Positions 1 to 58,682 of a stretch of DNA of 58,682 bases are shown piece after piece. The DNA comes from an uncultured Verrucomicrobia subdivision 3 bacterium. Its GTDB lineage: Bacteria > Verrucomicrobiota > Verrucomicrobiia > Limisphaerales > UBA11358. The stretch's first letter is position 1. Each line of letters begins with the position of its first letter. The stretch is from contig CAIQWB010000124.1 of NCBI GenBank assembly GCA_903875465.1, forward strand, positions 1-58,682. Reading direction: 5' to 3'. The notes beneath the pieces are model-generated. The model was not told where the DNA came from. It did not search any database and saw only the letters and a list, made by a program, of their open reading frames with translations. The translations under genes and the position numbers were made by a program.

Positions 1-699
1 AATGGTGCCTTGAACGTGCACCGCCCCGGCGTCGAGGGCGGCCAGAGCATTGGCCACGCCCACGCCGCTGTCATCATGCGTGTGAATACCCAACTTGCAG
101 TTGAGTTTCCCCAAGGCCGCCTGGGTGATGCCGGCAATCTCGCTGGGCAGGCAACCGCCATTGGTGTCGCACAACACCACGAAATCTGCCCCTGCCTTCT
201 CCGCGGTCTGCCACGTGGCCAAGGCATAATCCGGATCCAGCTTAAAACCGTCAAACGCATGTTCGGCGTCATAGACCACAAATTTGCCGTGATCCTTTAA
301 GTACCGCACGGTGTCCGCGATCATGGCCAGGTTTTCCTCGGGGGTGCAGCGCAATACTTCCCGGACGTGGAGCAGGGAGGTCTTGCCAAATATCGTCACC
401 ACCGGTGTGCCGGCTTCGATGAGCAACCGCACTTGATCGTCGGCTTCCACCGGTGTGCCCTTTTTGCGGGTGGAACCGAAGGCTGCCAGCCGGGCATTTT
501 TGAACTTCTTTTTGCGGGCCTGGGCAAAAAACTCAATATCCTTGGGATTGCTGCCCGGCCAGCCACCTTCAATATAATGAACCCCGAACGCATCCAGTTT
601 TTCCGCGATGCGCAGCTTGTCGGCCACCGAAAAATTAATGCCTTCGCCCTGCGAGCCGTCGCGCAAGGTCGTGTCGTAGATTTCGACTTGTGGTTTCAT
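1..699 (-). CDS. cimA: citramalate synthase (partial, 5' part)
   Basis: The 233 residues read from the ATG at 699 leave the window at position 1 with the frame still open, so only the N-terminal half is present. The protein opens with the HMGL-family signature DTTLRDGSQGEG. It continues with GGWPGSNPKD, typical of the CimA/LeuA2 branch rather than LeuA, and ends near HTHDDSGVGVANAL, whose two histidines are metal ligands of the TIM barrel. Family members condense pyruvate with acetyl-CoA to (R)-citramalate, feeding isoleucine synthesis by the threonine-independent route. The gene points leftward, away from a long intergenic region. No Shine-Dalgarno sequence precedes the ATG, and an AT-rich TATAG stretch lies just upstream. 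An isopropylmalate or homocitrate synthase is less likely given the GWPGSNP motif. Confidence 0.9.
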   Translation of the reverse strand, partial: MKPQVEIYDTTLRDGSQGEGINFSVADKLRIAEKLDAFGVHYIEGGWPGSNPKDIEFFAQARKKKFKNARLAAFGSTRKKGTPVEADDQVRLLIEAGTPVVTIFGKTSLLHVREVLRCTPEENLAMIADTVRYLKDHGKFVVYDAEHAFDGFKLDPDYALATWQTAEKAGADFVVLCDTNGGCLPSEIAGITQAALGKLNCKLGIHTHDDSGVGVANALAALDAGAVHVQGTI

Positions 700-869: not shown

Positions 870-1657
870 GTCTCAAGCCCAAGGTCCAAGGTCAAAACCG
901 GGCAAAGGCACGATTAGAGGCGATTCGCCTGGATTTGAAAACCAATGCCGGGTCAGGATAAAACCAAGGGTTTGGGAGAATATTGGCGCCCATCCAGCGG
1001 GGCAGACCTCCGTTGGGTGGGGGCTTGACGGGGCTTGACGGGATGTTTCATGGTTTTGATGCAATTTGTTGAATTTCAACGACCTGCTGCGTTTTACCGG
1101 CTGGAGAGGGGCTTTACGAAGAAGTCCAAGGTCCAAGGTGGAAAACTGGCAAAGGCACGATTGGGTACGATTAGGGGCGATTTGCTTGGGTTTGGCCACG
1201 AACGCCGGGGCAGGGGATCCGACCTACGGGGCATGGACGTGTGCCTGGTGGTCCGGTGAAATCATCGGGAGGAGCAGGATCGCAGTTGGGCGGAGGAACT
1301 CCATGTGCGCAGCCGGGACTTTTTTTATTTTTTAAAGCCGGATGTGCCCGGATCTACCCGGAAGTAGCCGGATTCTCCTTACGATGGCCGCGAAGGGAGA
1401 CTCATTTCAGGGAGTCCATTTTGGGATGTCAAAGAACCGATTTCTCCCTGGCACTCCTTGGCGGAGCATTTGGGGCGCCATGTTTGGCATGGCAAAGGGG
1501 CCAAGGGAGGATGGATGGCTGTTCACGCGGAAAGCCGACGCGTCGCAAAGCGGCACCCGGCACGGGCGCAAGGGCGGAATCATTATTCGGTCCAATCCAC
1601 TCACAAGATGAGTATATGGCCGCGGGCAGAGTTTGTCAAATGGAGGCAGCGCCGGGC
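870..1657. repeat. interspersed intergenic element, copy A
   Basis: The 1.1 kb between cimA and glgP has no convincing gene. Most of it matches, in the same order, the region at 47386-47970. Shared blocks are: GGCAAAGGCACGATT (twice here, 901-915 and 1148-1162, once in copy B); a T-rich run followed by four GGAT units with period 10 (1340, 1350, 1360, 1370); TGTCAAAGAAC at 1427; and a final block at 1586-1657, about 57 of 72 positions identical to copy B. Distances are conserved: 87 bp between the GGAT array and TGTCAA in both copies, and 179 versus 180 bp from there to the promoter-like block. Sequence between blocks has diverged, so the spacing and blocks look constrained. Whether this is an RNA gene, a regulatory island or a mobile remnant cannot be told. 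Positions 700-869 hold nothing recognisable. Confidence 0.6.
1611..1639 (-). promoter_or_regulatory. sigma70-type promoter inside element copy A
   Basis: On the minus strand TTGACA (1639-1634), a 17-bp spacer and TATACT (1616-1611) form a near-consensus housekeeping promoter. Both hexamers and the spacer length are identical in copy B (47952-47924), while the spacer bases differ. Predicted start is near 1604, reading leftward through the element. The next minus-strand gene is cimA, over 900 bp away, and copy B has no equivalent gene, so an element-encoded transcript is more likely than a cimA promoter. Confidence 0.6.
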
Positions 1658-46637: not shown

Positions 46638-46818
46638 TGCGTTTCCCGGTTCGAAGCGGCCCCGGCCGCAACTATTCACAATGATAAAACAAGGCAATCG
46701 GTAAAAAGTTGCGATTTTCGCCCGCTCTTGTAGCGTCTGGGCTGACTGGCCGATGGTTTCCGCCAAGACGAAAGTGTTTTTCCGACAGCCAGTAATCTGT
46801 TTTATCCATATCATTGCT

Positions 46819-47220
46819 ATGACCCGATGCTATTGTTTTGTGCTGTTTTGGCTGGCCCGCGTGGCAGGTCTCATTGGTTTGGTGGCCGGTGGCAAGTCTT
46901 TGGTTAAATACGCGCTGGCGCGGCTCAAAGATCCCTATTTCGATTCCTTTTCCTACAATGACCTGGTGTTTTCGGGCGGGGTGATTTTTTTATTGTCCTT
47001 GCTGGTTTTGATTTTGGTGGAGTTGGGCAAAAACGTGGGGCGGACATCGCCGGTACAGCCGGTTGGGGCGACCAGCGCATCCGTACCAGGAAGTGGGGCA
47101 GAGGACCAAGCCACCATGACGAACCGGGCGGCGGGGGCCAAGGCGGAGGCTGTGCTGGTGGTGACGGAGGCATCGCCAGATGCTAAATTGGCGCGGCTGC
47201 TGAAGCAACATGAGGATTGA
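46819..47220 (+). CDS. small two-helix membrane protein of unknown function
   Basis: 133 residues. Two hydrophobic segments, at about 5-25 (CFVLFWLARVAGLIGLVAGG) and 51-68 (VFSGGVIFLLSLLVLILVEL), are followed by a 65-residue Ala/Thr/Gly-rich tail, probably disordered. I start at the ATG at 46819; an upstream in-frame alternative at 46753 would add 22 residues. No family is recognised. It diverges from the prepilin gene and is followed by a long intergenic region. Confidence 0.55.
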   Translation: MTRCYCFVLFWLARVAGLIGLVAGGKSLVKYALARLKDPYFDSFSYNDLVFSGGVIFLLSLLVLILVELGKNVGRTSPVQPVGATSASVPGSGAEDQATMTNRAAGAKAEAVLVVTEASPDAKLARLLKQHED

Positions 47221-47385: not shown

Positions 47386-47970
47386 GGCGCCCACCCAGTC
47401 GGTTAGACGGCCGTGAGGGGGGCTTTACCACGCTGGACGGCGGAGGGGAACAAGTCCAAAGTCTCAGTTCCCCTGTCACAACCTGGCAAAGGCACGATTA
47501 GGTGCGATTTACCGCGATTTACCCACACGCCGGGGCGGGGTGGCGCAGGCTTGCAGGTCCGGGGTTGTCACCAGTCAGGGGCAGGGTGCAGTCTGGGGAA
47601 AGAGGGGCCAGCGGGACGGAGCGTTGAGTTTTTTTCTTTTTTTCTTTGGCCGGATGTACCCGGATCTACTCGGATGTAGTCGGATACGGCTGGGGGGCCG
47701 GCGCATGGAGGCTCATTATTTGGGTCTCCGCTTTGAGTTGTCAAAGAACTGACTGCCGCCGCACGCACCGTGGTGGACCCATTAGCGCGGCATGGGTGAC
47801 TGGGCCAAGCAACCTTTTGCTGATGGGCGGGCGTTCGCGCGGAAAAATGGTGCGACGCAAGGTGGTCATCTGGCCCGGGTGGAGGGGCGGAAAAATCACC
47901 CGGTCTAAACCACTCTCTTGATGAGTATATGGCAGCGGGGGGATTTTGTCAAATGGAGGCGGTGCCGGAA
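47386..47970. repeat. interspersed intergenic element, copy B
   Basis: Second copy of the element described at 870-1657, in the same orientation. It has GGCAAAGGCACGATTA (47485-47500), a T-rich run, four GGAT units with exact period 10 (47652, 47662, 47672, 47682), TGTCAAAGAAC (47739) and the promoter-bearing block 47899-47970. The neighbouring genes differ from those of copy A, so the element itself is the conserved unit. The stretch 47221-47385 and 47971-48060 shows only GC-rich sequence, including a tandem GGGAGGGGGCCT repeat near 47990-48010. No credible gene was found between 47221 and 48509. Confidence 0.6.
47924..47952 (-). promoter_or_regulatory. sigma70-type promoter inside element copy B
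   Basis: TTGACA (47952-47947), 17-bp spacer, TATACT (47929-47924), the same hexamers and spacing as copy A. The predicted transcript starts near 47917 and runs leftward across the period-10 array. Confidence 0.6.
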
Positions 47971-48060
47971 GCTTTTCGGCGGAAGCCTGGGAGGGGGCCT
48001 GGGAGGGGGCCTGGTCCTGGTTTGGCGGGAAATTGTAAAATAGCCGAAAATACCATAAAA

Positions 48061-48222
48061 CCCGAACTCCGAAATTAAAACGGCCGGTCGGCATCAATCT
48101 CTTGGGCATAAACGCTTTGGAAAAATCTCACCAGACCACTGCGGGTATGCCGGCGATTTTTCCAAAGTGTTTCTGCTCCAACATCTTGACGCATCCCAGC
48201 CATTTTAATTTCGGAGTTCGGG
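48061..48222. mobile_element. MITE-like foldback element
   Basis: A 162-bp near-perfect palindrome. The outer arms are CCCGAACTCCGAAATTAAAA (identical at both ends, extending to 23 of 24 positions). The inner arms AACGCTTTGGAAAAATC and GATTTTTCCAAAGTGTT pair at 16 of 17 positions around a 27-base loop. TAAAA occurs directly on both sides (48056-48060 and 48223-48227), which could be a 5-bp target duplication. No transposase gene is inside. A second copy starts at 58649. A long transcribed hairpin or large REP-like element is the alternative reading. Confidence 0.7.
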
Positions 48223-48509
48223 TAAAATTGGCCGTTTTTCGATGATGGTGCGCGCAAACGGACGCCATTGGGGGAGGCTGGCGGGGGCCGGGGTGAGGAA
48301 TAATGACCAAAAATCATGGGGCACCGCAAGCCGCATTGGCGGTGCCTGGCCAGGTCGTTGGCAGGATTTTGGCGATCACGCCCCCGCCACGGCTAATCTT
48401 TTTTTGCTAATTAGTTTGCAAAAAAGGGTGGCCGCAGTTTTCATGGTATTCTCAGAATTGTATCCGGGAAGGCAAGGTGTTTCGCGGTTACTTATCCACT
48501 TAACCGACT

Positions 48510-51500
48510 ATGTACCACGAAATCGATTTCAACCGGGGCGGTTTTTTTGGATGCCGCCACCACCGGCCCGGCTTTTTGCGCACCCTCTTACTGACGCTGG
48601 CGCTATTGCCGGGTTTTACCCCGGCTGGCCGGGCGACGATCACCGCGCTGAATTACTGGCGCCAGGGTGAGAATGATCCGGGGGCGCACCCGGGGGTGGT
48701 CGCCAGCGCCACTACGGACAGCGTGGGGACCAACCCGCTCACCATGGTGGGCAGTTCGTTATATTCAGGGAATATCGCCACGGCGGCGGCCACCGCCACG
48801 GGCAGCAGCCTGGACACCTCGTTTTTTGCCAACGGGGTTTATGGCATCGGCACGCTCATTCCGGCCACCCTGCTCAATAACTTTGGCGTAGAACTATGGG
48901 TCAACCCGGCCAGCACGTCGGGAAGCCAGGCTTTGGCTTACAATGGCAGCCCGGGGAGCAGTGGCTGGGGGCTTTTTCTCATTAATGGCACGTACCAAGG
49001 GCTTTTTGGCGGGGTAACCTTCATTGGCACAGCGACGGCCACGGCCGGAACCTGGACCCATCTGGCCTTGGTAAGAAATAACGGCACGACCACGCTTTAC
49101 GTCAACGGGGTGGCCTCCGGCAGCACCAGCACGGCGGCCCCCAACCCGCCGACGGGAAACTTTGGCTTCGGGATCAATCCCAACGGGGGCGGGAACCAGT
49201 TTCTGGGTTACATGGACGAAATGCGCATTTTCACATTTACGGCCAACCAATTCAGCACCAGTGATTTGTTGATCAATGCGGGAGCGCCATTGGCCACGGT
49301 TGGGGCCGCCACCAGTATCACGGCGACCAGCGCCATCCTGAACGGCAGTGTTAATCCCAACGGGCTCGACAGCGTGAGCTATTTTGCTTACGGCAGCGGC
49401 ACTTACGGCACCCTCACGCCCAATCAGAAGGCGGCGGCGGCGAAGTCCAGCGGGGCGGTCAGTGCGGCGATTACCGGTCTGGCTCCCGGTACCAGCTATC
49501 AATATTTGGTCGTGGCGGCCAATAGTGCCGGGCAAATTTCCAGCAGCGGGACCACCTTTACCACGCTTGCCGTGGTGCCGGTGGCCACCACCGGCCAGGC
49601 GGCACCGGTTACGGGCACGGGGGCCACCCTGAAGGGCACGGTTAACCCGAATGGGGCCGCGACCACGGCCTATTTTCAATATGGGCTGACGGCGAGTTCC
49701 ACCGTGCCGAGTTTGCCGAACGGCAGTTTCGAGGCGGACACCTACACGGTTTATCCAGGTTATGCCAGTGGGAATGGCGGCGGGATCACGGGATGGACGC
49801 TTTCGGACCCGTCGCGAATCGGGATCAATCCGGCGGGAAGTTCGCCGTTTGCCGATAACGGTGCGATCCCCGACGGGGCCAATGTGGCGTTCATCCAATC
49901 CTCGGGTGTTAATGCCGTCACGCTGGCCACCACCATCACGGGGCTGGTGGTCGGACAAACTTATCTAGTGAGTTTTCTGGCCAATTCCCGGTCCGGGTTT
50001 GCCGCGCCCATGGCCGCCTGGTCCGTTAACGGGGGCAACTATGTGCCGATTACGGCCGCGCCGGCGGTGGGCGGGAGCCAAGGTTATTACTCCAACACGG
50101 GATTTTTTGTGGCGACCGCGGCCACGGCGGCCCTGGTGCTGCGGAATCAGACCAATGCCGACAGCACGGTGCTGGTGGATGCGTTTAACGTATATCAGAT
50201 AGGGGGAGGAGCCACGGTGCCCGTGGCCCTGGCCGCCACCAATGTGGCGTTGCCGGTGGCCAGTGCGGTCACCAGCCTGGCCCCGGGCACCCTCTATCAT
50301 TTTCGGCAAGTGGCGGTCAACAGCCAGGGAACCACGACCGGCAATGACCAAGTCTTTACCACGGCGGGGGGGCCAGTGATCACGTCCGCAACGGCGAGCA
50401 ACCTGACGACCAGCAACGGGGTGTTGCAGGCGGTGGTTTTTCCGGGGCAGAGCAGCACAACGGTTTATTTTAATTACGGGTTATCCACGGATTACGGATT
50501 TACCACGGGGGCAACCAACATTGGCGCCGGCAGCAGCAGCGTGAGTGGCGCGGCGCTGGCAGACAACTTGTTTGCCGGCCTGCCGTATCATTTTCAAGTG
50601 GTTGCGGCCAACAGTTCGGGAACCGCCGTCAGTCCGGATTTTACATTCACGGCACCGGGTAATTTGAGTGCCACGGTCACGACGACTAACGACAACCTGA
50701 GCGCCGGTTCCTTGCGCCAGGCCATCGCCAATGCCACCAACGGGGGCACCATCAATTTCGCCGTCACCGGCACCATCACGCTAACCAATGCGTTGCCGGC
50801 CATCTTCAAGGGCCTGACCATCAACGGTCCCGGCGCGGGCAACCTGACCATCAGCGGCAACAACCTTTACCGGATATTTTTCGTGGACGCGGGAACGAAC
50901 ACCGTTAACGTCAACAATTTAACGCTGGCCAATGGCAAAGCCCAGGGCGGCGCGGGCGGAGGTTCCTATGGCGGTGGTGGCCTCGGGGCGGGCGGTGCGC
51001 TGTTTGTCAATTCCGGATCGGTGATTGCCTCGAATCTTAATTTCACGGGAAATTCGGCGGTGGGGGGCAATGGGGCGAGCTCGGCCGGCGGGGGAACTGG
51101 CGGGGGCGGCGGGGGATTTGGCGGAGCGGGCGGCACGAGCAGCGGTGCCGGCGGTGGCGGTGGCGGCGGGTTTGCTGGAAACGGCGGCACGAAATTAGAG
51201 ACCGGAACCGGTGGGGGCGGTGGGGGCGGGTTTGGCGCCAGTGGCGGTCAGGGCCGTTTCGATGCCGGGGCCGGCGGTGGGGCGTTGCTTGCTGGGCAGG
51301 ATGGCAGTGTGGGCGTGGGCGGGACCGGCGGGGCTGGCGGCGGGGGCACGGGTGCAAACAATGTGGGTCCGCAAGGCACTGCCACCGGTGGCAGCGGCAT
51401 ATTGTTCGGCGGCGGTGGCGGTGGCGGCTACGGCATATTTGGGGCTCAGTCCGGCGGCTATGGCGGCAATGGTGGCAAATTTGGCGGGGGGGGCGGCGGC

Positions 51501-54500
51501 GGTTATTATGGCCCGGGTGGTGCCGGTGGGGATTTTGGCGGCGGGGGCGGCTCGGGTCTCAATTATTTCAACGGTTACGGCGGCGGTGGCAGTGGCGGCT
51601 TTGGTGGCGGTGGCGGTGGCGATTGGGAGTTTGGCGGCAACGGAGGATTCGGTGGCGGCGGCGGCGGCGCCATCCATTATGGCGGAATGGCGGGCGCGTT
51701 TGCGGGATACGGGAACGCAAATGGCGGCGGGGGCGGGTCGGCATTGGGTGGGGCGGCGTTTGTGCGCGCGGCCAACGGGGCGTCGATCACAATTTATAAT
51801 GCCTCCATGGACGCGGGCTTGCTTACCGGTGGTGGCAGCGCCTCCCAAGCCGGTCAGACGGCGGGCAGCTCCTTGTTTAGCCTGGGTGGAACCAATGTGA
51901 TCACGGTCGGCAGTGGAACCAATATCATTGCGGGTAGCATTGCGGAATACGGCCCCGCTGCACTCGCCAAAAACGGCGCGGGCACCCTGGTGCTTTCCGG
52001 GGCCAGCAGCTATTCCGGTCCAACCTGGATTAATGGAGGAACCCTGACGGTGGCCGGCAACATCAGTTCCAGCAGCGCACTTTATATCACCAACGGCGCA
52101 ACGCTCGGCGGCGGCGGCACGGTGGGGGCGGTTAATTTAAACACGGGCGGCACTCTGAGTCCCGGCTTGGGAACCCTGACCACGGGTAATGCCACCTGGG
52201 CGGGAGTGGCCAATTATAACTGGCAGATTTACGATGCCACTAATGCCGAAGGCCTGGGGTACGGCACCATCAAAGTGAATGGCAGCCTCGACCTTTCGGC
52301 CGTGACCACCCTCGATCTGAATCTGTGGTCGTTCGCCAACGGGGCGCCTGCGACCAACGGCAACCCGATTCATTTTCCCTCGCTGGCGGGCGGGTCCTGG
52401 ACCTTGATTCAAACCAGCGGCGGCATCACCGGTTTCAATGCGAACAAATGCGTGGTGAACAAGGCGGCGACCAATGGCACTGGTGGATTTACTAGTGGAC
52501 TGGCCCAAGTCACGTTTATCGCGAGTGTGACGGGCAGCAAGCTGGTGTTGACGCCGGTGGCCGCGCCTTTTTTGCTGGGGCAACCCGTCACGGAGATCAC
52601 CAGTTTGAACGCCCTGCTGAATGCCCAGGTTAATCCCTACAATACGAATGCAGTCCTGATATGCCTCAGCGGTCTGACCACCAACTATGGAACGACTAAT
52701 CTGATCAGCCTAGGGGCGGGGGGCGCGCCCGTCGCCGTGACTAACCGATTGACCGGGCTGGTGGCGGCCACGATGTATCATTACCGGATGATTGCCACGA
52801 ATGCAGCGGGGCTGGCCGACAGTGGCGACCAGACGTTCATTACGCCGGCCGGTCCGCCGGTGGCGGTGACGCTAGGGGCAACGAGCCCCGGCAGCAATAC
52901 GGTGTCGGTCTATGGCACGGTCAATCCGGAAAACGCGGCCGGCGGGTGGTTTTTCCAATATGGATTGACGACGAATTACGGGCTGGTCACGAGCCCCAAC
53001 GCCCTGGCTTCCGGCAGCGTGCCCGTGCGGGTGACCAACAGCCTGGCGGGACTGGACCCGGGCACCTTGTATCATTTTCAATTGGTGGCGACCAATGGCC
53101 TGGGAACACGGGGGGGCGGGGACCTGACGTTTACCAGCCCGGCGAGCCTGCCGGCCCTGGGGCAGCAGCCGCCGAGCGGCATTGGCCGCAGCAACGCCAC
53201 CCTGAATGTCCTCGTCACACCCAATGACGTGGCCACCACCGTCTTTTTTTCCTGGGGGGCAACCACCAACTATGGCATGACAAATGCATTGGTGGTGGGG
53301 AGTGGCACGGACGTGCTGCCCGTGGCCGATGCCTTGACGAACCTCGCGACCTATACCCTGTATCATTACCAAGTCACCGCCATTAATTCGGCGGGGGCCA
53401 CCACCGGCAGCGACCAAACATTTTACACGCTGGCCCCGGCGGTGAACGGACCGCTGAGCCCCGTGGCGTACTGGCACATGGGCGAGAGCGATCCGGGCGC
53501 GGCGGCGGGGACTTTGGCTGCCAGCACGCGGGATGAATTCGGCAGCAACACGCTGACGCTGAACGGAAATGGCGCTTACTATGCCGCGCAGGTGAGTGCC
53601 AACGCGGCTGGACTGGCGGGCAGCAGGCTGTCGCTCAATTTTTCCAACGGCGCCACTTACGCCACGGGTATGCAGCCCTTTCTGGCGGTGTCCAACTTTG
53701 GCGTGGAGGGCTGGTTCTATCAGACAACCACGCCCGGTTCCCAGGTGTTGTTTTACAATGGCGATCCCGGGGGCAACGGCTGGGGGGTGGGCGAAACGGC
53801 TGGCAACTATGAAATTCTCCTGGGCAACGTGGTGTTTTATCCCACCCCCGCCGCGGCGGGTTTAAATGGCTGGACCCATCTGGCTTTGGTTTGCGAGGGC
53901 GGGATGGCCACGTTATATACCAATGGCATCGTGGCGGGCACCGTGGCCGCCACTCCCAATCCGCCGACCGGCAGCTTTGCCCTCGGCGCGACCCCCGGGG
54001 GGGGCAATATTTTCACCGGGTTCATGGACGAAGTGCGGGTGTTCACTTTTGCCACCGGCACCTTTGCGACCAACTACCTGCTGTTGAATGTGCCGTTGAA
54101 ACTCGCTCAGTTCAGCCAGGTTTTGGCCAGCGCCATCAGCAACACGGGCGCGACCTTGAAGGCCACGGTGACGGGCAACGGACCCGCCGGGGCCGGGGTG
54201 CAGGCATGGTTCCAATACGGACTGACCACCAATTATGACCGGGTCACGATTACCAATACGATCGCGGCCAGCCCGGCGCAACCCATCGCCACGGCCCTGT
54301 CCGGATTGCAGATCAATACCGTGTATCACTATCGCGTCGTGGCAAACAACGGCACGGGCGTGAGCAGCAGTGACGACATGACCTTCTTGACGCAGGTGCT
54401 GGCGCCCACGGTGACGGTGCAGCCGGTCAGCAGTTTCCCGGTCACCAATGCCACGCTCAATGCGCTGATCAATCCGAACGAAGCCGCCACGACGGTTTAT

Positions 54501-56045
54501 TTTCTGTGGGGGCGGACGGCGGGCCATGGCCAGACCAATGTGGTGAACCTTGACTCGGGATATACGGCAGTGCCGGTGGCGGACACCTTGAGCAACCTGT
54601 TGACCGGCACGCAGTATCATTATGAAATTGTGGCCAGCAACGCCCTGGGGATAACCCTGAGTGGCGACCAGGTCTTCACGACCGGGAGTGCCGCGCCGGC
54701 GGTGGGCACGCTGGCGGCCAGCGGCATTACCGCGACCACGGCCACCCTGAATGGCGTGGTCAATCCCAACAGCCTGGCCACCGCAGCCTATTTCAGTTAC
54801 GGCGGGTCGACCAATTTTACCAGCCCGGCCATTCCGAATCCCGGTTTTGAGGCTGACACTTACACCGGCTATCCCGGATATGCCAATGGAAATGGCGGCG
54901 GCATTACGGGCTGGACGATTTCCTTTCCCACCCGCGAAGGTTTAAACTCGGCCACGCTGGCGCCGTTTGCCGATAATGGAGCCATACCCGAGGGGCACAA
55001 CGTGGCGTTCATTCAATCGCTCTTGGTGCTCAGCGGGCCTGTCCCCACGCTGGGCACCACGCTCACGGACCTGGCCCCGGGGCAAGCCTACCAGGTCACT
55101 TTTCGCGCTAATTCCCGGGCGGCGAGCGCCCCGCCGCAATCTACCTGGTCACTGAATGGCGGGGCCTGGGTGGCCTTCACCGCCTGGCCACCGGTCGGTG
55201 GCACCAATGCCTATTACACCAACTCGGGCACGTTTTTGGCCACGGGAACCACGGCGACCCTGCAATTGCGGAATCAACTCTTCTTGCAGGACAGCGCGGT
55301 GCTGGTGGATGACTTCAGGATTGCGCAGGTGGGGCTCGGCTTGACCGGGACAATCGCGCTGCCGACCACCAACGTGGCCATGCCGGTGGCGGTGACCGTT
55401 ACCGGTTTAAGACCGGGGACGACTTATTATTACCGCCTGAACGGGACGAACGCACTGGGCAGCGCGCAGGGGGGGACCTTTTCATTCACCACCCCCACGG
55501 CCGCACCCGCTACGACGACAGTCGCGGCCAGTGCGATCGCGGCCAAAAGTGCGACACTCAACGGGACAATCAATCCCAATGGAGAGGCAACGACGGCCTA
55601 TTTCCAATACGGGGTGACCACGAATTATGGCAGCTTCAGCCCCACCAACAATTTGGCGGCGGACTACGCGCCGCTGGCATTGGCCAGCCTGATCAATCAT
55701 TTAACACCGGCCACGACCTACCATTTCCAACTGGTGGGCAGCAATGGCACGGGTGCCACCGCCGGGGAGGATCTGACCTTCACGACCCTGGCGGATCCAC
55801 AGGCGACGGACATCCGCTTCAATGGCGCATTCGCTCCAGCCAGCGGGACGCTGCAGTTGAGCTTTACCAACGTGAGCGGACTCAACTTCACGATCCTGGG
55901 CACCACGAACCTGGCGGTCCCCGTGGGGGACTGGACGGTGCGGGGAGTGGCGGTGGAAGTGCCCGCAGGGTCGGGGAATTACCAATTTGTGGACCCGCAA
56001 ACGACAACCCATGCCACGCAGTTCTACCGGGTTCGTTCGCCTTGA
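48510..56045 (+). CDS. giant secreted modular protein (LamG, Fn3-like repeats, beta-helix/Gly-rich, autotransporter-type repeat)
   Basis: 2511 residues, exported (hydrophobic FLRTLLLTLALLPGF, residues 22-36, cleavage near GRA). Order by residue: LamG-like lectin domain 45-255; Fn3-like repeats 265-360 and 360-620, the second interrupted by a DUF642-like jelly-roll beginning GSFEADTYT; Fn3 625-715; parallel beta-helix segment 718-1130 containing about 270 residues of glycine-rich sequence (nt 50940-51760); an autotransporter-associated strand repeat (KNGAGTLVLSGASSYSGPTW) to 1350; three Fn3 units; second LamG 1650-1860; two Fn3 units; another Fn3 with the same jelly-roll insertion (2060-2330); one Fn3; and a C-terminal module ending THATQFYRVRSP. 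Fn3 units share L-N-G-x-V-N-P-N-G and PGTxYHFxLVA-type motifs. Probable role is carbohydrate or surface adhesion. Expression and anchoring are unknown, and the low-complexity DNA makes assembly errors possible. Confidence 0.88.
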   Translation: MYHEIDFNRGGFFGCRHHRPGFLRTLLLTLALLPGFTPAGRATITALNYWRQGENDPGAHPGVVASATTDSVGTNPLTMVGSSLYSGNIATAAATATGSSLDTSFFANGVYGIGTLIPATLLNNFGVELWVNPASTSGSQALAYNGSPGSSGWGLFLINGTYQGLFGGVTFIGTATATAGTWTHLALVRNNGTTTLYVNGVASGSTSTAAPNPPTGNFGFGINPNGGGNQFLGYMDEMRIFTFTANQFSTSDLLINAGAPLATVGAATSITATSAILNGSVNPNGLDSVSYFAYGSGTYGTLTPNQKAAAAKSSGAVSAAITGLAPGTSYQYLVVAANSAGQISSSGTTFTTLAVVPVATTGQAAPVTGTGATLKGTVNPNGAATTAYFQYGLTASSTVPSLPNGSFEADTYTVYPGYASGNGGGITGWTLSDPSRIGINPAGSSPFADNGAIPDGANVAFIQSSGVNAVTLATTITGLVVGQTYLVSFLANSRSGFAAPMAAWSVNGGNYVPITAAPAVGGSQGYYSNTGFFVATAATAALVLRNQTNADSTVLVDAFNVYQIGGGATVPVALAATNVALPVASAVTSLAPGTLYHFRQVAVNSQGTTTGNDQVFTTAGGPVITSATASNLTTSNGVLQAVVFPGQSSTTVYFNYGLSTDYGFTTGATNIGAGSSSVSGAALADNLFAGLPYHFQVVAANSSGTAVSPDFTFTAPGNLSATVTTTNDNLSAGSLRQAIANATNGGTINFAVTGTITLTNALPAIFKGLTINGPGAGNLTISGNNLYRIFFVDAGTNTVNVNNLTLANGKAQGGAGGGSYGGGGLGAGGALFVNSGSVIASNLNFTGNSAVGGNGASSAGGGTGGGGGGFGGAGGTSSGAGGGGGGGFAGNGGTKLETGTGGGGGGGFGASGGQGRFDAGAGGGALLAGQDGSVGVGGTGGAGGGGTGANNVGPQGTATGGSGILFGGGGGGGYGIFGAQSGGYGGNGGKFGGGGGGGYYGPGGAGGDFGGGGGSGLNYFNGYGGGGSGGFGGGGGGDWEFGGNGGFGGGGGGAIHYGGMAGAFAGYGNANGGGGGSALGGAAFVRAANGASITIYNASMDAGLLTGGGSASQAGQTAGSSLFSLGGTNVITVGSGTNIIAGSIAEYGPAALAKNGAGTLVLSGASSYSGPTWINGGTLTVAGNISSSSALYITNGATLGGGGTVGAVNLNTGGTLSPGLGTLTTGNATWAGVANYNWQIYDATNAEGLGYGTIKVNGSLDLSAVTTLDLNLWSFANGAPATNGNPIHFPSLAGGSWTLIQTSGGITGFNANKCVVNKAATNGTGGFTSGLAQVTFIASVTGSKLVLTPVAAPFLLGQPVTEITSLNALLNAQVNPYNTNAVLICLSGLTTNYGTTNLISLGAGGAPVAVTNRLTGLVAATMYHYRMIATNAAGLADSGDQTFITPAGPPVAVTLGATSPGSNTVSVYGTVNPENAAGGWFFQYGLTTNYGLVTSPNALASGSVPVRVTNSLAGLDPGTLYHFQLVATNGLGTRGGGDLTFTSPASLPALGQQPPSGIGRSNATLNVLVTPNDVATTVFFSWGATTNYGMTNALVVGSGTDVLPVADALTNLATYTLYHYQVTAINSAGATTGSDQTFYTLAPAVNGPLSPVAYWHMGESDPGAAAGTLAASTRDEFGSNTLTLNGNGAYYAAQVSANAAGLAGSRLSLNFSNGATYATGMQPFLAVSNFGVEGWFYQTTTPGSQVLFYNGDPGGNGWGVGETAGNYEILLGNVVFYPTPAAAGLNGWTHLALVCEGGMATLYTNGIVAGTVAATPNPPTGSFALGATPGGGNIFTGFMDEVRVFTFATGTFATNYLLLNVPLKLAQFSQVLASAISNTGATLKATVTGNGPAGAGVQAWFQYGLTTNYDRVTITNTIAASPAQPIATALSGLQINTVYHYRVVANNGTGVSSSDDMTFLTQVLAPTVTVQPVSSFPVTNATLNALINPNEAATTVYFLWGRTAGHGQTNVVNLDSGYTAVPVADTLSNLLTGTQYHYEIVASNALGITLSGDQVFTTGSAAPAVGTLAASGITATTATLNGVVNPNSLATAAYFSYGGSTNFTSPAIPNPGFEADTYTGYPGYANGNGGGITGWTISFPTREGLNSATLAPFADNGAIPEGHNVAFIQSLLVLSGPVPTLGTTLTDLAPGQAYQVTFRANSRAASAPPQSTWSLNGGAWVAFTAWPPVGGTNAYYTNSGTFLATGTTATLQLRNQLFLQDSAVLVDDFRIAQVGLGLTGTIALPTTNVAMPVAVTVTGLRPGTTYYYRLNGTNALGSAQGGTFSFTTPTAAPATTTVAASAIAAKSATLNGTINPNGEATTAYFQYGVTTNYGSFSPTNNLAADYAPLALASLINHLTPATTYHFQLVGSNGTGATAGEDLTFTTLADPQATDIRFNGAFAPASGTLQLSFTNVSGLNFTILGTTNLAVPVGDWTVRGVAVEVPAGSGNYQFVDPQTTTHATQFYRVRSP

Positions 56046-58610: not shown

Positions 58611-58648
58611 ACTGCAAACTGCAAGCTTTTAGACCCGGGAACATTTAA

Positions 58649-58682
58649 CCCGAACTCCGAAATTAAAACGGCCGGACGGCAT
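58649..58682. mobile_element. start of a second foldback element, cut by the window edge
   Basis: The last 34 bp match the left end of the 48061-48222 element at 33 of 34 positions, in the same orientation, 38 bp after the transporter stop. It is preceded by TTTAA, an AT-rich 5-mer comparable with the TAAAA beside the first copy. The rest of the element lies outside the window. Confidence 0.75.

Follow-up and report, generated by a model that had tools for sequence, protein, structure and literature searches.

Dispersed promoter-boxA cassettes with ten-nucleotide arrays in a Verrucomicrobia subdivision 3 genome: candidate Nus-factor leader modules

Two intergenic elements, copies A and B, in the window studied here (the whole 58,682-nt stretch of DNA that was analysed, from an uncultured Verrucomicrobia subdivision 3 bacterium) are, judging by their sequence, members of a dispersed minus-strand family in which a sigma-70-type promoter (TTGACA-N17-TATACT) is followed by a leader, a boxA and repeat arrays. 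By our own criteria the genome holds 32 such cassettes, namely 17 copies of the family, four further boxA loci and 11 sites found through their array decamers. The reading that we put first, to which we would give about an even chance, is that these are dispersed promoter-boxA leader modules, in which Nus factors would be loaded onto a polymerase that has a long untranslated region to cross before, in most cases, entering the gene that follows.

The two window copies match each other at 70% over 335 nt (E 2e-35), far beyond chance. A first-pass annotation had described them as blocks in the same order at conserved distances, and we confirmed this order, with the blocks lying at the positions it gave, while several details had to be adjusted. 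The GGCAAAGGCACGATT block is indeed shared, at 47485 in copy B, and occurs twice in copy A (901 and 1148), not once; period-10 CCGGAT units start at 1338 in copy A and 47650 in copy B, the supposed four GGAT units being three GGAT and one GGAA in copy A; the TGTCAAAGAAC block is present in both (1427 and 47739); and the similar end block, given as 72 bp of about 79% identity, measures 102 nt at 78% (1554-1655 and 47867-47968). Spacings do agree to within 1 bp, at 89/89 and 180/181 from the coordinates against the 87/87 and 179/180 noted before. The argument from fixed distance is nonetheless not general: from the -35 hexamer to the boxA there are 52 to 203 nt across 17 copies, the equal spacing being a feature of A and B, which both have long leaders. 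The functional strand of both is the minus strand, because promoter and boxA read on it; a CsrA-type GGA decoy, formed by the GGAT units of the first-pass annotation, was set aside since promoter and boxA place the transcript on the other strand. The core element of copy A spans about 1021-1657, and 870-1020 contains a second, partial copy of the repeat block. The features are as follows.

1021..1657, minus: copy A core cassette, from the promoter to the 3' module CCCGTCAAGCCCCGTCAAG (copy-to-copy BLAST coverage profile and sequences)
1634..1639, minus: copy A -35 hexamer, TTGACA (sequence)
1611..1616, minus: copy A -10 hexamer, TATACT, spacer 17 nt (sequence)
1594..1610, minus: copy A initial transcribed region, CATCTTGTGAGTGGATT; the commonest form in the family is CATCATGAGAGTGGTTT (GAG[TC]NG motif)
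1426..1437, minus: copy A boxA, GTTCTTTGACAT (match to the rRNA spacer boxA)
1338..1373, minus: copy A period-10 array, ATCCGG type (the GGAT units of the first-pass annotation)
1320..1337, minus: copy A A-rich tract (T-rich on the plus strand)
1148..1183, minus: copy A period-10 array, CTAATCGYRC type, plus CTTTGCC
1124..1139, minus: copy A period-7 stretch (CCTTGGA)
1031..1042, minus: copy A 3' end motif, CCCGTCAAGCCC
884..936, minus: extra partial repeat-block copy behind copy A, without promoter or boxA
1..699, minus: gene with an HMGL-like domain behind copy A, sense, truncated by the window edge
47386..47970, minus: copy B core cassette (BLAST and sequences)
47947..47952, minus: copy B -35 hexamer, TTGACA (sequence)
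47924..47929, minus: copy B -10 hexamer, TATACT, spacer 17 nt (sequence)
47738..47749, minus: copy B boxA, GTTCTTTGACAA; with the next base, C, 13 nt are identical to the spacer boxA GTTCTTTGACAAC
47650..47685, minus: copy B period-10 array, ATCCGG type
47485..47522, minus: copy B period-10 array, CTAATCGYRC type, plus CTTTGCC
46753..47220, plus: ORF behind copy B, convergent (antisense to the cassette)

The HMGL-domain gene is presumably of the citramalate/isopropylmalate-synthase type.

Further copies, which the first-pass annotation had proposed as a check, are plentiful. Searching the 5.3-Mb assembly with copy A gave 26 pieces at E <=1 and 18 at E <=0.001, the query included; joined by place and orientation, with the weak C22, C114 and C148 left out, they make 17 loci, the window copies among them, and the stronger pieces of this own-genome similarity search are mostly 66-84% identical. 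The boxA search added one more distant copy (C76), the 18th. All 18 carry, on the minus strand, TTGACA, a 17-nt spacer (16 in C76) and TATACT or a one-base variant of it, followed in most by CATCATGAGAGTGGTTT or similar; the GAG[TC]NG motif lies about 14 nt past the start of the -10 in 16 of them. The pattern TTTGACA-N16-19-TATACTCATCA matched 11 times in the genome and never in the reversed control, copy A, which ends in CATCT, being outside these exact matches. A boxA stands downstream of the promoter, on the transcribed strand, in 16 of the 17 similarity-found copies (C104 has none) and in C76, its first 11 nt being within one base in 17 of 18 (GCTCTTTGACA in C120, GTTCTTTGGCA in C38). Identity by column was 0.83-0.94 at the -10 and following positions up to 33, 0.50-0.94 in the spacer, 0.28-0.56 in the flank beyond -16, and 0.88-1.00 in the boxA against 0.35-0.88 around it, with TTGACA and the boxA itself serving as alignment anchors, where conservation is partly by construction.

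The same parts also recur when copies are found by other means. A promoter is present in all four copies matched by BLAST on the boxA side only (C5, C17, C24, C142), and of the four matched on the promoter side only, C38, C52 and C87 have a boxA and C104 has none. The decamer pattern AATCGYRCCYAATCGYRC gave 68 genome matches against none in the control, 15 of the places being new and 14 of these testable (one is too close to a contig end); a boxA with <=1 mismatch lay 65-442 nt upstream in 11 of the 14 and a promoter in 12, each of the 11 boxA being preceded by TTGAC[AG]-N15-19-TAnnnT, while L341 has the promoter only, and both are missing from L330 and L332. When these stretches were shuffled (n=1400), a boxA appeared in 0.4%, a promoter in 1.1% and both in 0.0%; for random 650-nt pieces of the window taken outside A and B the figures were 0.0%, 0.7% and 0.0%, respectively. 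The boxA GTTCTTTGACAT occurs 20 times in the genome (0 in the control), and at 17 of these 20 loci the top promoter score exceeds the shuffle-95% level. The four additional boxA loci counted among the cassettes have promoters above null (L024/L087, L038, L048, L049/L088); L052, with a promoter score of 8.6 under a threshold of 9.8, and L341 were left out.

Such joint recurrence argues against a selfish dispersed repeat, an explanation under which copies spread by an unknown route, with promoter and boxA incidental and no gain to the host. MITEs and REP/REPIN elements are dispersed intergenic repeats with tens of diverged copies, and the cassettes resemble them in being numerous, diverged and mostly intergenic; truncated forms, such as C104 and C120 (in which family similarity stops soon after the boxA), and the lineage-specific sequence would likewise suit a selfish repeat. 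On the other hand, promoter and boxA are kept together, unlike in these elements, and the comparison of 18 copies on the minus strand showed no terminal inverted repeats common to them, only other flanking repeats. Together with the relatives described below, which keep the plan with different sequences, this makes the selfish repeat unlikely in our view.

The identity of the boxA rests on comparison with rRNA loci of the genus, SSU rRNA having been obtained from 9 of 40 genus genomes and none from the own assembly. Five of the genus rRNA loci have both ends; their 16S leaders contain TGCTCTTTGAAAA (with CATT in place of CTTT in one), and GTTCTTTGACAAC is present in the 16S-23S spacer of all five. 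The family boxA shares its first 11 nt with this spacer boxA in 5/5 loci, copy B shares all 13, and GTTCTTTGACA is identical to it in 5/5. The own genome has two NusB-domain matches, the second inside a longer frame. By sequence, the family element is thus an rRNA-type boxA and a candidate NusB/E binding element. The cassettes share with rRNA operon leaders and spacers a promoter and a boxA identical over these 11 nt, but differ from rRNA operons in being dispersed, and the Rfam scan of the window placed no rRNA behind its two copies.

Behind the boxA stand period-10 arrays of two kinds, the ATCCGGCTA and CTAATCGYRC types. The tail also includes a tract rich in A, a stretch of period 7 and a 3' module that ends in CCCGTCAAGCCC; some copies lack one or more of these parts. 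Rather than recent duplication, the first-pass annotation had favoured a unit under constraint, for instance an RNA gene or a multi-part regulatory island. Its outline stands, with 17 similarity copies and 32 cassettes in the same part order. RNAalifold found no conserved fold (three segments, roughly aligned, gave energies of 0, 0 and -0.8, and the third alignment contains some misplaced rows), the compensatory changes that had been suggested as a check were not seen as far as these alignments allow, and scanning the window with Rfam at the gathering threshold gave 0 matches. Compared with dinucleotide shuffles, the 200 nt that follow the boxA fold slightly more stably (mean z from -0.3 to -1.5 in six genomes). 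A Rho-loading role for the arrays as C-rich, unstructured stretches is unsupported: C exceeds G in only some genomes, folding is slightly stronger than in shuffles, and 2 of the 10 listed units have no YC step. Our guess is that the arrays offer multiple landing sites to a factor that binds RNA or DNA. Within the array region of two cassettes, L018 (own C24) and L331 (own C32), there is a similar insert, CCGGATCCATGCAATAGAAA ... GGTTCCGGCTTAG. Long expanded decamer arrays with units CCCTATCGTA and CCCAATCGTG stand at contig ends in L077 (own C52) and L333 (own C83), and may break the assembly there.

The own decamer unit has a counterpart at rRNA loci L057-L061, where the pair GTGCGATTAG/CTAATCGCAC of the pre-16S leader and trailer is the same as its complement or as one of its forms; this likeness may be due to chance. 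It could also be taken to mean a trans-acting RNA on ribosome assembly, whose CTAATCGYRC arrays would imitate the trailer strand of 16S, CTAATCGCAC, and base-pair with GTGCGATTAG in the pre-16S leader, directly after the leader boxA. The trailer strand is present in 4 of the 5 genus rRNA loci with both ends and the leader sequence in 6 of 7 genus leaders, and by inspection array variants could still pair through G-U. A match of such length is, however, not improbable (rough estimate 0.06), the majority of own units read CTAATCGTGC and so differ by two changes, such a match is absent from the arrays of other genomes, and SSU rRNA was not found in the own assembly, all of which leads us to consider this explanation very improbable.

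Comparison with relatives at first suggested a species-only repeat. Copy C142 as a BLASTN query against 49 genus genomes matched the own genome only, as did the exact promoter pattern when sought in the order (293 genomes); distant BLASTN of 350 nt of copy A against a phage collection gave 0 matches, and no viral contigs with CTAATCGTGCCTTTGCCAG were found. In a broader contig collection, which may omit records near the window's genome, the exact promoter pattern gave 27 single, taxonomically scattered matches, none titled Verrucomicrobiota, which we read as chance. The species-only view was overturned by the boxA search in the order: the boxA 12-mer occurs at least 6 times in 12 of the 293 genomes (6 to 29), against at most 3 for the reversed control, with counts of 20 in the own genome (G000), 29 in G138, 22 in G012, 18 in G258, 16 in G153, 14 in G184, 12 in G103, 10 each in G239 and G112, 9 in G019, 7 in G170 and 6 in G143. 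In a phylum sample of 288 genomes only the own genome, G534 (18), G475 (6) and G493 (6) reached at least 6, and G539 had 7 reversed-control matches. Among the matches listed for G534, 13 boxA 12-mers lie within 0.9 kb of contig C5 (23103-23983), in steps of about 72 nt; this is perhaps an array of another kind, CRISPR-type or another tandem array with the 12-mer in its repeat. CRISPR arrays consist of repeats of about 20-40 nt with unique spacers between, whereas the cassette repeats are 10 nt long and stand head to tail without spacers.

We read 123 boxA loci from 11 genomes, comprising all of those in the own genome (20), G258 (18) and G239 (10), and 22 of 29 in G138, 8 of 16 in G153, 10 of 22 in G012, 10 of 12 in G103, 8 of 14 in G184, 7 of 10 in G112, 5 of 9 in G019 and 5 of 6 in G143, with G170 left out. 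Lag-10 runs above the shuffle-95% level (base-composition shuffles) follow the boxA at 87 of the 119 loci with enough sequence in the 11 genomes: 17/20 in the own genome, 14/17 in G258, 5/10 in G239, 22/22 in G138, 5/8 in G153, 6/9 in G012, 9/10 in G103, 8/8 in G184, 1/5 in G143 and 0/5 in each of G112 and G019. The 10-nt units are genome-specific, for example AATCAAGGTG in G258, ATTCAAGGTG in G239, AATTAAACCA in G103, AATCCAAGTT in G184, AAAAGTGCGG in G138 and AAAGTGCCAG in G012. Promoter scores exceed the shuffle-95% level at 10/10 loci in G239, where recognisable versions of the own promoters occur (TATACTCATCGCGCGAGTGGTT; TTGACAACTCATCAGGCGATGCTA), and at 5/10 in G103; few are above null in G258 (2/18), G138 (0/22), G153 (0/7), G012 (1/10), G143 (1/5), G184 (1/8), G112 (0/7) and G019 (0/5).

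As to the genes behind the cassettes, a simple codon-usage gene caller placed 120 of the 123 boxA loci outside called genes and 3 inside. Among the 17 own-genome copies with an ORF behind, 12 are sense (C120 on a low-scoring ORF) and 5 convergent. All ten boxA cassettes of G239 are sense to a gene; these genes include tyrS and purM, which score above curated cut-offs, as well as IMP-dehydrogenase, GalU- and CdsA-like genes that fall below equivalog cut-offs, and 2 of the 10 are without any family match. Annotation of 30 downstream proteins, 10 each from three genomes, gave no evident function common between genomes. Overall, 63 of 94 are sense, against 0.62 expected from random placement in longer intergenic gaps (an estimate from only 38 gaps; p 0.34), and the window's own family, at 31/39, is the only one to exceed this background (p 0.03). 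As proof of a leader role, orientation is weakened by the background estimate. We therefore hold the leader reading at about one half.

These results also bear on autonomous long noncoding RNA genes, whose product would be an untranslated RNA of several hundred nucleotides with decamer arrays, made processive by boxA as proposed for CRISPR arrays, gene proximity being incidental. Absence of coding periodicity (lag 3) downstream of the boxA in most genomes speaks for such genes, as do the arrays kept in most copies, the existence of convergent copies and the overall sense bias, which is not above background; against them stand the missing conserved fold and array sequences that differ between genomes. 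No intrinsic terminator was found by a strict rule in the 20 gaps tested, gaps of convergent copies included, which also argues against them. The six of ten G239 cassette-to-gene gaps that were tested are 188-380 nt long and without terminator, and five have no second promoter above null (one does), again a point against autonomous genes; the nine of 12 own sense gaps tested are likewise without terminator, with a second promoter above null in one, a tie in one and none in seven. Weighing these points, we regard noncoding RNA genes as a somewhat unlikely explanation.

On the preferred leader reading, RNA polymerase would start at the cassette promoter and the nascent boxA would bind NusB-S10 (NusE), by analogy with pre-rRNA; the Nus-modified polymerase would then cross several hundred untranslated nucleotides. 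In most copies the transcript would be a long 5' leader that extends into the following gene and places it under Nus control; for copy A this is the HMGL-domain gene. Copies facing a convergent ORF, such as copy B, would give free or antisense RNA. We favour read-through (antitermination) as the effect over repression as in E. coli suhB, although sequence cannot tell the two apart. Antitermination cannot safely be concluded from a boxA alone, because, according to PMC5725501, E. coli rRNA does not need Nus factors against Rho, their role there being mainly to aid folding, and at suhB Nus factors promote Rho termination through translational repression.

The same paper describes Nus factor control of E. 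coli suhB via a 5' boxA, putative boxA upstream of genes of many functions in diverse species, and an expectation of few targets per species, the survey having taken only sites <=50 nt from gene starts, without noncoding RNAs. The cassettes resemble suhB-type mRNA leaders in having a boxA in what is, for them, a predicted 5' untranslated region, but unlike the surveyed sites theirs is some 200 nt or further from the gene, on its upstream side, and unlike such leaders they are repeat-like, each bringing a consensus promoter and 10-nt arrays of its own, with 32 cases in one genome by our criteria. According to PMC7862264, which cites Stringer et al. for boxA upstream of CRISPR arrays, a CRISPR array transcript is about tenfold higher with boxA; the cassettes share with this arrangement a promoter and boxA before a long untranslated repeat array. 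In the literature searched, which had subscription papers and preprints outside its scope, no description of multi-copy promoter-boxA-array cassettes was found.

A wider proposal is that several lineages of the order have a repeat-amplified 'Nus regulon', in which tens of cassettes per genome would recruit the rRNA Nus machinery to period-10 untranslated transcripts and so couple many unrelated genes or free RNAs to the state of ribosome synthesis. We consider this possible, if doubtful; a regulon of such a repeat-amplified kind could conceivably be previously undescribed. The known settings of boxA are rRNA, some mRNA leaders and CRISPR arrays. If the proposal is true, some 32 cassettes in one genome, and relatives with up to 29 of the boxA 12-mers, would show that a repeat-like module can spread the rRNA Nus machinery over a genome. 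Scattered cassettes would offer a natural series for asking about Nus factor roles outside rRNA, and the arrays, whose period stays the same from genome to genome although their sequence does not, are amenable to testing.

Other elements were seen alongside the cassettes. A MITE-like short element with inverted ends, ACCCGAACTCCGAAATTAAAACGGCC ... TTTTAATTTCGGAGTTCGGGT, occurs in the window at 48060-48223 and 58642-58682 and also at L024, L025, L336 and L337, and adjoins or sits inside several cassettes. Another shared block, TTTTATGATCTTTGCTGCTATTT-like, lies about 50-200 nt upstream of the promoter in L071, L074, L081 and L083 and about 125-275 nt upstream in L082, and was also met in inverted orientation. 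Finally, an open frame of 2511 codons with internal repeats (48510-56045 of the window) is divergent from copy B.
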